Shown here one piece after another: positions 41,837 to 44,739 of a DNA stretch of 64,000 nucleotides. Positions within the stretch are counted from its first letter, which is position 1. Each line of letters starts with the position of its first letter. Where the stretch lies: assembly GCF_029223545.1 (NCBI RefSeq), contig NZ_CP097870.1, positions 3,782,001-3,846,000 on the forward strand, written 5' to 3'. The position numbers and the translations under genes are program-made. This DNA is from Thauera sp. GDN1 (GTDB taxonomy: Bacteria > Pseudomonadota > Gammaproteobacteria > Burkholderiales > Rhodocyclaceae). The notes under the pieces were generated by a model that was given only the letters and a program-made list of their open reading frames with translations, was not told the origin of the DNA and made no database searches.

Positions 41837-42280
41837 TCACGATCCGGTCGTATCGCTCGCACTTCCTGCATCTCCACCTCCTCCTTTGTCAGCACTCGGG
41901 GATGCGGACGCGGCAAGCAGCGCGGCCTCGAGGATCAGCTGCTCCGGAATCGCCTCGAAGCTCACCCTTCCGACCTCCAGTGTCCGGCACTCCGCGCCGC
42001 CGCAGGCCGAGCAGCAGGTGCTTTTGCCGACGCCCGCGCCCAGCCAATCCTCGATCGAACGCCCGGCGATCCAGATCCGGTTCGATTCCGAGGGCATGCC
42101 CTTGAACGCGTCGAGCGCGATCTCCCGCGTTTCCAGAACGGGCTCGATGCCAAGCGGCCGCAACGCCTCCCGAAGCTTGGGGATGGCCTGGACGATGGCG
42201 TCGTACGTGCCGCCGCAGCGCTCGCAGGTCTCCCCTTCAGGCGTGACGAGTCGCTGCCACAGGATGTTCAGGGTCTTCAT
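41837..42280 (-). CDS. DUF2703 cysteine-rich protein
   Basis: A 147-aa protein starting MKTLNILWQRLVTPEGETC. Two cysteine groups, CERCGGTYD near residue 20 and STCCSACGGAECRTLEV near residue 88, with the thioredoxin-like spacing between them, match the DUF2703 family of unknown function. The cysteines suggest metal or thiol chemistry; this is inference. The start follows family length; a longer frame would add 46 residues of poor composition. A palindrome lies upstream at 42403-42419. Confidence 0.7.
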   Translation of the reverse strand: MKTLNILWQRLVTPEGETCERCGGTYDAIVQAIPKLREALRPLGIEPVLETREIALDAFKGMPSESNRIWIAGRSIEDWLGAGVGKSTCCSACGGAECRTLEVGRVSFEAIPEQLILEAALLAASASPSADKGGGGDAGSASDTTGS

Positions 42281-42402
42281 CTTGATCGAAGTCCTCGTGA
42301 GCCAGACGCCAAGCTGAAACGATCTGGCGGCCTGGGATCCGTTCACTGGGGAACGCTGGCGGCCGATGCTGTCAGCCTCGCACGACCTCACTATCGTAAA
42401 GC

Positions 42403-42419
42403 TTTGACCCGCCGTCAAA
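42403..42419. promoter_or_regulatory. Operator-like inverted repeat upstream of the DUF2703 gene
   Basis: TTTGAC-N5-GTCAAA, a perfect 6-bp inverted repeat 122 bases upstream of the DUF2703 start codon. Its size suits a dimeric repressor. No matching regulator gene is adjacent. Between this site and 42586 I see no convincing gene. Confidence 0.4.
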
Positions 42420-42586
42420 AGGCTTGTTGCTCGTCGGGCAGGCGACAGGAGACGGGTCCGGCATCGAATCCCTCAACCCGCTTCGCACCTCATGTCTCGG
42501 ACACGATTGCTGGAGCTGAAGGCCTACGTGATCGGGGCAGGCGGTTTTCGACCCAGAGCAGCCGTAGAGCCTTTGGGAAAGCTGTC

Positions 42587-42655
42587 GTTCAACGTTGGAG
42601 CTAAGCGGCGGATTTGGCGAAGCCAAAGACGTCCGACTTGAGCGAATTGTTAGCG
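42587..42655 (-). repeat. Integron attC site (69 bp)
   Basis: Read on the minus strand it starts CGCTAACAATTCGCTCAAG and ends CTTAGCTCCAACGTTGAAC. That gives an R'' box CGCTAAC, an R' box GTTGAAC (exact GTTRRRY), L''/L' arms that are imperfectly complementary, and a central hairpin TTTGGC-TTCG-CCAAA minus its outermost base (plus strand 42613-42627). This is the full architecture of a cassette recombination site and closely resembles the class 1-type consensus. It follows, on the minus strand, the small membrane ORF at 42732-42968. Confidence 0.8.
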
Positions 42656-42731
42656 GGTGAACCCGCCAACGGGAATTGGTGCGGAGGGGAGGAATTTAAC
42701 CTCCCGCGTTCTCTCCTGGAAGGCAGCATAT

Positions 42732-42968
42732 TTAGGCGCATATGTATCCCTCGTCTGGGTTGGAGCTTTTACCGACAGGCCTCCGCAGGAACGCTGCTCC
42801 GCACCAAACACTAACCACGCAACTAATAACAAGGGTGATTGAGTCAAACATCTTTACCTCCATCGCGCTGAAATAGACCGCGGATATCGACAGCAAAAAC
42901 ACCAACCCAAACGAGATATCAATACTTGCTTCTATATGAGCCTTGAACTCCAAGACTTTTAGGGCCAA
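42732..42968 (-). CDS. Cassette-borne small membrane protein, unknown
   Basis: Up to 78 aa from a TTG at 42968, unrecognised. Two hydrophobic segments (FGLVFLLSISAVYFSA and ITLVISCVVSVWCGAAFL) are separated by a short charged loop. The base composition is far below that of the chromosome. It begins four bases after the end of one attC-like site and ends 76 bases before the next, the normal position of a cassette gene. A second TTG at 42953 could also be the start. Coding status is moderate. Confidence 0.45.
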   Translation of the reverse strand: MALKVLEFKAHIEASIDISFGLVFLLSISAVYFSAMEVKMFDSITLVISCVVSVWCGAAFLRRPVGKSSNPDEGYICA

Positions 42969-42972
42969 AGCC

Positions 42973-43029
42973 CGCTAATGTCAAATTTGAACGGCGCCGG
43001 AGGCGCCCATGTCGAACGAAATATTAGCC
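42973..43029 (-). repeat. attC-like site (57 bp), somewhat degenerate
   Basis: Read on the minus strand it opens GGCTAATATTTCGTTCGACA and closes with GACATTAGCG, around the hairpin GGCGCC-TCC-GGCGCC. The end boxes GGCTAAT and ATTAGCG are mutually complementary over GCTAAT, but the usual AAC/GTT core reads AAT/ATT. The stop codon of the HEPN-like gene lies inside the R'' box, as in typical gene cassettes. Confidence 0.6.
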
Positions 43030-43626
43030 ATGTTTTATTTCAGGGTGGCGCTCTTCTAAGTACAGCTTTAAGCGTCTCTCAAAGCGCTCCTGAGTGGAAA
43101 GTTCCCTACGCTCCGAGGCTCGCGCTCCGGACAAAGTTTCGACAGCCATTTGGTTTGCAACGTGTGATTCCGCTTTACGGATACACAGTCGTTCGTGAGC
43201 CACCACGATATTGACGAATCCAACTGCAAAGAGAGTCTCTAGCACTTCACGTGGCTCTTGTTCATCTTTAAATTCGTCAGGAACAACAGGAGCTGACCTT
43301 GAAAGGAGGACGTTCTTTGCATCGAGGCCGTCCTTAACTGAGAATTCGGTATAGGGATTGTGAGCAAATCGATTTCGAATCGTGTTAATCAAATTGAATA
43401 CAGGGCGCAGATCTCTCCTTAAGATGCCTAGTCCTGTTGCGAAATCAACTTTCAGCAAGAAAGCAACGCGTTCAATTTCAATTGCATCCGCCTTCGGCAA
43501 CGCCTCCAGCAGTGCTATGTTCAATAGCTGATCTATAGAATAGTGCGCCTTAACAACCAATGACAAAAGATCCGGCGCGTCTTTCAATAGCCCTTCGAAT
43601 TGTGATTCTCTACTGACAGCGACCAT
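43024..43626 (-). CDS. HEPN/MltR-like protein in a low-GC cassette
   Basis: A 200-aa mostly helical protein. The segment NTIRNRFAHNPY contains an R-x4-H motif (R84, H89), the catalytic signature of HEPN ribonucleases. The surrounding pattern also resembles MltR-type and abortive-infection HEPN proteins. The C-terminal third is rich in Arg/Glu (ERRELSTQERFERRLKLYLEERH). AAGGA stands before ATG 43626. Base composition is very unlike the flanks, and the stop sits in an attC-like site, so it is probably a captured cassette gene. No antitoxin-like MNT partner is adjacent. Confidence 0.65.
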   Translation of the reverse strand: MVAVSRESQFEGLLKDAPDLLSLVVKAHYSIDQLLNIALLEALPKADAIEIERVAFLLKVDFATGLGILRRDLRPVFNLINTIRNRFAHNPYTEFSVKDGLDAKNVLLSRSAPVVPDEFKDEQEPREVLETLFAVGFVNIVVAHERLCIRKAESHVANQMAVETLSGARASERRELSTQERFERRLKLYLEERHPEIKHG

Positions 43627-43776
43627 CAAAGTCTATTCCTTACGCTTTCGTCAACCTTTTTCTGGCGACAGTTTTTCCGCATAACATCTGAACGCCGAAT
43701 AAAATGTCCTGCGAGTTACTATTTAAATGTAGGAACCACGCTCAAGGCAAGACAACAAGACAGGAATCGCAGCAGC

Positions 43777-43920
43777 CTACAGCTTAGTGGGCTGATGCCC
43801 CATCTGGCGCATAGGCAGAGAGCATACCGCCTCGTCCAGATGGCCGCTATCCGGATCGGGTGGCGACTGGCTGTTTGTGGCCGCATCCAGCCAAACGTCC
43901 AGTAATTCTCCCGGCCCCAA
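43777..43920 (-). CDS. Possible small ORF directly after, and in frame with, the NYN gene
   Basis: After the NYN stop codon the same frame stays open for 48 codons to a TAG at 43777. A TTG six bases after the NYN stop, with AAGG before it, could start a 47-aa peptide (with LLDVWLDAATNSQSPPDPDS and ending MRQMGHQPTKL). The composition looks protein-like. It may instead be a C-terminal part of the NYN protein cut off by a stop, or a remnant of another gene. The rest of 43627-43776 shows nothing I can name. Confidence 0.3.
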   Translation of the reverse strand: MGPGELLDVWLDAATNSQSPPDPDSGHLDEAVCSLPMRQMGHQPTKL

Positions 43921-43923
43921 CCC

Positions 43924-44739
43924 TTAACGTTTCTTCTTCGCCCGAATATAGAGCACCTTGCTGGTTCCACCCGGCGCAACCCGCTCCTCGGTGAGGAACA
44001 GATCATCCCGACCCCGCACCAGATCAGAAAGCTTCTTGAAACCATGAAGCCGTGAATCGAAATCGGGCTGGATCTTCTGCAGATAACTGCCGAAGGTGCC
44101 GAGATGAGCCCAACCGGAATCATCAGCGGATTTTTCCAGGGCCTCCATCAGGAAGTCGGTGGGAAAGGCCGGGCGCGCCAGCGTGGGTGCGGACGCGGGC
44201 GTCGCCTCGGGCGCCTCGATGGCAGGCGATGATCCGTTCGCCGACGCGGTCGGTTCAACCGCGGCAGCCGGCTTGCGCAGCACTTCCGTGAAGATGAACT
44301 TGTGGCAGGCGTTGCGGAATGCCTCGGGAGTCTTCTGCTCACCGAATCCATACACCAGCAGCCCTTCTTCCCGCAGTCGCACGGCCAGGCCGGTGAAGTC
44401 GCTGTCGCTGGTGACCAGGCAGTAGCCATCGAAGCGGCGGGTGTAGAGCAGATCCATCGCGTCGATGATCATGGTGCTGTCGGTCGCATTCTTGCCGCTG
44501 GTGTAGGCGAACTGCTGGACAGGCTTGATCGAGTAGCGGTTGAGGACCTTCTTCCAGGATGCGCTGTTGGGCGAGGTGAAGTCGCCGTAGATCCGCCGCA
44601 CCGTGGCTTCGCCGAAGCGGGCGACCTCCTCGAGCAGGCCCTCGATGACGCCGGCCTGGGCATTGTCCGCGTCGATGAGGACGGCGAGACGCTTGGCGGG
44701 TTCTTCCGCTTCGACACGGACCACAGTCTTCGGCTGCAT
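43924..44739 (-). CDS. NYN domain ribonuclease-like protein with C-terminal OST-HTH/LOTUS domain
   Basis: A 271-aa cytoplasmic protein. The PIN-like NYN domain (about 15-150) has the acidic motifs AVLIDADNAQ, SGKNATDSTMIIDAMDLLY and CLVTSDSDFTGLAVRLREEG, as in LabA/DUF88 proteins and presumed metal-dependent RNases. A Pro/Ala linker leads to a C-terminal OST-HTH domain (DDSGWAHLGTFGSYLQKIQPDF), an RNA-binding module. It has a normal chromosomal GC content. It is likely an RNA-processing enzyme; the target is unknown. Confidence 0.85.
   Translation of the reverse strand: MQPKTVVRVEAEEPAKRLAVLIDADNAQAGVIEGLLEEVARFGEATVRRIYGDFTSPNSASWKKVLNRYSIKPVQQFAYTSGKNATDSTMIIDAMDLLYTRRFDGYCLVTSDSDFTGLAVRLREEGLLVYGFGEQKTPEAFRNACHKFIFTEVLRKPAAAVEPTASANGSSPAIEAPEATPASAPTLARPAFPTDFLMEALEKSADDSGWAHLGTFGSYLQKIQPDFDSRLHGFKKLSDLVRGRDDLFLTEERVAPGGTSKVLYIRAKKKR

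Follow-up and report, generated by a model that had tools for sequence, protein, structure and literature searches.

How should an array of integron cassettes be read when the genome around it appears to hold no integron integrase? The question is raised by a chromosomal stretch of Thauera sp. GDN1 (NZ_CP097870.1, positions 3,782,001 to 3,846,000 of the forward strand). This 64,000-nucleotide stretch was analysed as a whole; it is called the window, and positions without a contig name refer to it. A first-pass annotation had described two attC-like sites bounding low-GC genes with no intI gene nearby, and had proposed an integrase-less attC cluster (CALIN).

Two attC-like sites and two low-GC cassettes

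The two sites, annotated as 69 and 57 bp long and in the same orientation, are present at these lengths on the minus strand. Site 1 (42587..42655, 69 bp) has the R''/R' pair CGCTAAC/GTTGAAC and site 2 (42973..43029, 57 bp) the pair GGCTAAT/ATTAGCG; R boxes, L arms and a central hairpin are found at both, as had been described. The core consensus is GTTRRRY/RYYYAAC, and the label attI1 is used below in its usual sense. Fifteen training sites at other loci went into an attC covariance model, both window sites being excluded; the model gave two matches in the 64-kb window. Site 1 ranked first (44.2 bits, E=4.5e-8) and was also the top of two matches in the 3.87-Mb genome (E=2.7e-6). Site 2 came second (15.8 bits, E=0.23; E=0.0049 in an unfiltered search limited to the element). 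Covariance scoring therefore places site 1 far above chance and leaves site 2 borderline. When the bottom strands were folded as single-stranded DNA, site 1 formed an arm of the expected kind, its unpaired bases all on one side (z -1.73 against shuffles), and site 2 took the expected shape too (z -0.83, weaker than site 1). Both fold energies, however, are weak against shuffles, that of site 1 being unexceptional. The region 42530-42660 matches 147 plasmid records at E<=1e-5 and, among the 60 listed, most matches cover the attC part only. The integron cassette reading is supported for site 1 and its cassette, and the same reading is plausible for site 2. Decay of site 2, which had been suspected from its AAT/ATT cores, is compatible with these cores and with the low score, and we regard it as probable.

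Cassette A extends from the attI core (see below) to R' of site 2 (42979..43654, minus strand) and carries a 201-aa gene (43024..43629, minus strand; 200 aa counting from the ATG at 43626). The TAA of this frame lies within the GGCTAAT of site 2, as annotated. Cassette B extends from R' of site 2 to R' of site 1 (42593..42978, minus strand) and contains a candidate gene of 78 aa with a TTG start (42732..42968, minus strand). The low GC content ascribed to the cassettes is evident, with 46.9% for A and 51.3% for B against 69.5% for the window.

The annotation reported no intI gene within 20 kb on either side, and this absence extends to the whole genome. Searched with the TIGR02249 profile, the genome of this strain gave no match over the cut-off and none at E<=1e-30; its best two matches are XerD- and XerC-like, and the third is a recombinase below every cut-off shown. 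Since no intI was found in the genome, the array is presumably frozen now. Under its defaults, IntegronFinder 2 is described as calling a CALIN from at least two attC sites (PMC9024848). The absence of an integrase near attC agrees with such a call; for the count of two, site 2 stands at E=0.23 over the window with our own covariance model, not that of IntegronFinder.

The genome-wide search for further attC sites yielded one more, a lone attC-like site at G000:C1:1863457-1863528 (L140:1501-1572; 26.3 bits, E=0.046). Its neighbours are a Trypco2-like gene (below the Pfam cut-off) on one side and a gene for a trypsin-like peptidase on the other.

A left unit conserved up to an integron core

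Two sequences framing the cassettes had been overlooked in the first-pass annotation, namely an attI-like unit at 43658-43883 and a terminal unit at 42549-42593. With them, the whole element, as delimited by the left and right unit profiles, covers 42549..43883 on the minus strand (its top strand). It is 1,335 bp long with a GC content of 49.6%, and runs from CGGCCA (43883) to GGGTCG (42549). The left unit (43658..43883, minus strand, 226 bp) has the terminal repeat CGGCCACAAACAGCC at its outer end and is followed by the core GTTGACG (43649..43655, minus strand), which was read from the sequence and from the alignment of family copies. The crossover point would lie between 43655 and 43654.

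The left-unit region was found, at dispersed positions, in 20 of the 29 Thauera genomes at E<=1e-3, and a sequence model of the unit matched 57 of 395 genomes of the taxonomic family, from 16 of 68 genera, at E<=1e-6; the strain's own genome is counted in both figures and some of the model matches are partial. In a search beyond the family, over 369 genomes drawn from the class, only the own genome was matched; the model matches it once. A search with flanking DNA matched 43658-43892 in plasmids of Thauera, Pseudomonas and Enterobacter; in three of the four records the match adjoins cassette genes in the stretches shown, and the fourth record is a partial match.

Twenty copies of the left unit can be aligned end to end. 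In the 48 left units that reach the end of the model, conservation extends beyond it, at 85-100% per column through AAAACAAAG. The next TT is conserved at 79% and 90%, and from 11 bases on the values are mostly 27-58%. GTT stands at the core position in 33 of these 48 copies, the full GTTRRRY in 17. A unit that is constant up to the core and is then followed by a variable cassette behaves as an attI site. Its last ~50 bp moreover resemble attI1 of intI1-bearing Thauera loci, through weak profile matches (E=0.00095 to 0.027; L082, L074, L076 and L084). Assignment to the attI sites thus relies on family-level conservation up to the core, the window core itself being degenerate both against the consensus GTTRRRY and against the family's AAAACAAAGTT. 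As this core is degenerate and the full GTTRRRY is found in only 17 of 48 copies, the window copy may not work as an attI site. A crude scan of the left unit detected no sigma-70-like promoter.

In some copies the left unit gives way to other sequence at an inner GTT that lies ~45-50 bases earlier. Three of them (L100:7343-8488, L103 and L057) are cut at this inner GTT core and continue with the same sequence in each. The cut unit of L100 is followed by a ~300-aa phage-integrase-type gene, as if another recombinase targeted the attI-like unit.

A right unit and a recurrent frame around cassettes

The right unit (42549..42593, minus strand, 45 bp, GTTGAAC...GGGTCG) leads from the R' core of the last attC to the right terminal repeat. 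In a comparison of 37 copies, the attC arm is conserved at 35-73%, the base just ahead of the core at 89%, and GTTGA at 97-100%. The right unit of the window is identical at 44 of 45 positions to a string in two plasmid records (L209 and L038), and it matches the right-unit profile at E=9.9e-13 with the window among the profile seeds. Because both the left and the right profile were seeded with the window, its own matches are no test; the other copies are.

The profile match extends to position 180 or further in 63 left units, and the 51 of these with at least 3 kb downstream were used for array counts. One duplicate, L102 (the same as L178), was left out of the array count, and the attC counts omit site 2 of the window and four weak matches (three below 22 bits, one at 22.1 bits). 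A same-strand attC lies within 6 kb downstream of 39 of the 51 units, an opposite-strand attC in the case of two. A right unit follows 37 of them, and a same-strand attC and/or a right unit within 6 kb follows 43, leaving eight with neither. When loci that had supplied training attC sites were excluded, attC was present at 25 of 34 second-batch left units. Thirty-four left/right pairs, the window included, span 0.84-5.6 kb; one right end is common to two of them, and in two right ends GGGTCG is altered by one or two letters.

Together, these results show that the window holds a real cassette array, for which a mini-integron is a better reading than a plain CALIN. The CALIN label was correct as far as attC-bounded cassettes without an integrase are concerned, a feature that the window element has in common with CALINs. 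It says too little because the array has an attI-like start and a conserved 45-bp end, and other cassettes are found within the same frame (43 of 51 units). Unlike a CALIN, the element has retained an attI-like site together with two conserved ends, and copies with this one frame are dispersed. It is one member of a family found here and there in Thauera and its relatives.

In plasmid pTha01 (L036:8004-10484), a module of attI-like unit, gene and attC occurs twice in tandem, with a separate left unit each time. Only one attI is present in a canonical integron.

Cassette cargo

The 201-aa protein of cassette A has no confirmed relative in the genome contigs, the plasmids or the 368 other genomes of the class, and neither this protein nor the 78-aa candidate matches a family over the curated cut-off. 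An AlphaFold model of the 201-aa protein, computed from the single sequence, has a mean pLDDT of 44.5 and is unusable. JetB was considered as an identity for this protein from a weak resemblance of ~50 residues (PADLOC E=0.014; PDB E=0.76), and we do not believe it. The 78-aa product of cassette B looks, by eye, like a small membrane protein. Elsewhere in the element family, 30 cassette-region proteins were chosen from 102 listed ORFs, and 13 of them had a Pfam match at E<=1e-4 (including GmrSD, ABC-3C, HNH, GTPase, methyltransferase and one transposase). PADLOC matched four of ten cassette proteins, three of these to type IV restriction and to Lamassu LmuA/LmuB. Cassettes elsewhere in the family include anti-phage genes, namely GmrSD type IV restriction and Lamassu LmuA/LmuB.

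Genomic neighbourhood, terminal repeats and target preference

The interval of ~39.8-44.9 kb is variable among the Thauera genomes compared, and the array of the window was not found in these relatives; the annotation's refuting condition, orthologous genomes showing ancient conserved sequence, was thus not borne out. Three genomes (G004, G008 and G013) carry attI-like units in the same interval with different left flanks, which we read as a hotspot or as turnover rather than as a single inherited insertion. The element lies between a DUF2703 gene and a NYN-LOTUS gene (41837-42418 and 43924-44739). No tni gene was seen beside it, and an Rfam search around the locus gave two sub-threshold matches only.

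The ends of the element are imperfect inverted repeats, CGGCCA... and CGACCC..., alike at 11 of 20 consensus positions (letter-shuffle p=0.008). Information profiles of 51 left and 38 right ends match each other, and both ends are nearly invariant at CGRCCM. In the outer flanks (41 left and 28 right, thinned for likeness), position -9 is G in 76% of the left and 71% of the right flanks, and position -7 is C in 68% and 82%, respectively. The preference outside the element is the same on both sides, that is, the target is mirror-symmetric.

No target site duplication was evident by eye in the 34 left/right pairs. A search of 23 genomes from a single genus for the empty sites of seven elements at other loci found none, a result that says little since each species is represented by one genome. 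One candidate, an 82% match across the joined L152 junction, was rejected: the left flank of L152 carries another right unit, so that the match is the L152 element's own right end. No phage record matches the element.

Of the 65 sequences scanned, six contain a frame for a tyrosine recombinase, and in five of these six it lies within ~100 bases of the left unit or overlaps it. This ~200-aa recombinase is a possible candidate for the enzyme acting on the element ends. The frame stands beside or overlaps the left unit in L098, L101, L108, L178 and L150. Some of the recombinase-adjacent left units have the recurrent flank ..TACTAT|CGGCCA.

Ends common to class 1 integrons and Tn402-type contexts

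Class 1 integrons are platforms that spread antibiotic resistance, and their boundaries may, reportedly, be described in work by Gillings from 2008. Eight intI1-bearing loci of Thauera start at C|GGCCA, the left end of the window element. Both ends are present in five of the eight, with the right unit at the end of the cassettes; two others reach contig ends and one has no right unit within 13 kb. The IntI proteins of such loci are 94-100% identical over 91-95 aa to the C-terminus of IntI1 from an E. coli plasmid record. All nine intI1-type left ends, one of which lies beside a broken intI1, share flank clusters with mini elements, the clusters being built by loose single linkage. The window element accordingly has the outer boundaries C|GGCCA and GGGTCG, while no intI1 was found in the genome. 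It has in common with class 1 integrons, whether chromosomal in Thauera or borne by Tn402, the left end, the GGGTCG right unit, the attI type of the last ~50 bp and the attC cassettes. It differs in having no intI1 and in the remainder of its 226-bp left unit, which is of another, conserved sequence.

In the E. coli plasmid record, a Tn402-type left arm directly joins CGGCCATCAGCGGACGCAGGG, which is followed by intI1. In a second plasmid record, ...GGGTCG joins ACACCGG, followed by a recombinase gene taken for tniR. Plasmid pMRCP1333 (AP025276.1) has a mini element between Tn402-type inverted repeats with an annotated TniR, and no intI is annotated in the 11,257 bases shown. This element belongs to the same family, and its right unit differs from that of the window at 1 of 45 positions; the window copy, in contrast, is chromosomal, has no tni gene seen beside it and holds different cassettes. 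The outer flanks of L159 and L161 also match the Tn402-type slot context. A joined query for this slot was matched in halves only, with no record covering 80% of it among the best 5000. There are plasmid records in which resistance cassettes follow a left unit and the stretches shown contain no annotated intI; these records suggest that uptake by Tn402 happened with the mini form too.

A mini element of a genome of the family (L159:1526-5808) lies between Tn402-type flanks and has an erythromycin-esterase-like cassette.

IntI1-like genes are weakly and not significantly associated with mini elements across genomes (7/7 vs 13/22, p=0.066); for any IntI over the cut-off, the figures are 9/12 vs 11/17 (p=0.69).

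Discussion

We consider it likely that the stretch is a conserved, integrase-less mini-integron with its own attI-like site, loaded in trans by IntI1. The inner end of the 226-bp unit would serve as an attI-type docking site and its outer end would bear one terminal repeat; the 45-bp unit, starting from the last attC core, would bear the other. Two exchangeable cassettes would lie between them, one with the 201-aa gene and one with a gene whose 78-aa product is probably a small membrane protein, and an attC would follow each. The element encodes no recombinase. Circular cassettes would at some time have been joined to its attI in trans, most likely by an IntI1-type integrase that a class 1 integron provided in the same cell. 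The family may have dispersed as a mobile element, and its cassettes may be expressed. What the sequences themselves show is the anatomy of the element, the limits of conservation at the core, the return of the frame around other cassettes and the ends in common with intI1-bearing integrons. Several results speak against the mini-integron reading: eight of the 51 units have neither an attC nor a right unit, the attI core of the window is degenerate, site 2 is marginal, this genome gave no IntI over the cut-off, and mini elements are only weakly associated with IntI1-like genes.

The same ends could also belong to a decayed class 1 integron, that is, an intI1-attI1 platform that lost intI1 by deletion and kept its cassettes. 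The ends are indeed those of intI1-bearing integrons, site 2 and the attI core look decayed, and loss of intI is among the origins proposed for CALINs in the literature (PMC8618304). A recent deletion, however, would leave pieces of intI1 or of its flanks, whereas the left unit is like the intI1 platform chiefly in its terminal repeat and its attI end and is otherwise a conserved sequence of its own, known from 16 of 68 genera and alignable end to end in 20 copies. Because of this conservation a recent deletion is disfavoured, and we regard this explanation as unlikely. An ancient single deletion of intI1 that then spread is possible and comes close to the mini-integron reading.

The left unit might instead be chiefly a mobile promoter, or a target repeat of another recombinase such as the small tyrosine recombinase, with cassette capture being incidental. 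The proximity of the tyrosine-recombinase frame to the left unit in five of the six sequences that have it, and the ~300-aa integrase after the left unit ending at the inner GTT core in L100, would fit such a role. As the small recombinase is found in 6 of 65 sequences only, and several other left flanks recur besides its own, we judge this quite improbable. That an IntI encoded elsewhere placed the cassettes at chance sites, leaving a plain CALIN beside unrelated intergenic repeats, is another origin proposed for CALINs (PMC8618304) and would suit the lone attC-like site at C1:1863457-1863528, where no left unit is found, but it is very improbable here because a common frame surrounds unrelated cassettes: left-unit conservation stops at the integron core, the right unit begins at the R' core, and a correctly oriented array or right end accompanies 43 of 51 units.

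The mini-integron reading invites comparison with MITEs and other non-autonomous elements. The family resembles them in being short and dispersed, in having terminal inverted repeats that are imperfect, in encoding no enzyme for itself and in having a larger relative with the same ends; it differs in the lack of a visible target site duplication and in its variable cassette cargo. Class 1 integrons and mini-integrons might be a single mobile element in an autonomous and a non-autonomous form, its ends being CGRCCM...KGGYCG and its targets mirror-symmetric. The mini form would then be a mobile docking pad loaded in trans, and end-to-end mobility would have put both forms in the same Tn402 slot. 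We put this wider proposal forward tentatively, as a possibility that we rate somewhat below even. The clinical class 1 integrons are considered to have arisen through uptake into Tn402-type transposons (PMC8618304), and the common ends give a testable account of how chromosomal class 1 integrons were taken up by Tn402.

Descriptions of attI sites outside class 1 integrons are reported to be poor, and IntegronFinder no longer looks for attI1 by default, according to the description of its second version (PMC9024848); arrays of this kind would therefore pass as plain CALINs. If many CALINs are docking pads, integrase-less would not mean dead, and one IntI1 could load several dispersed sites.
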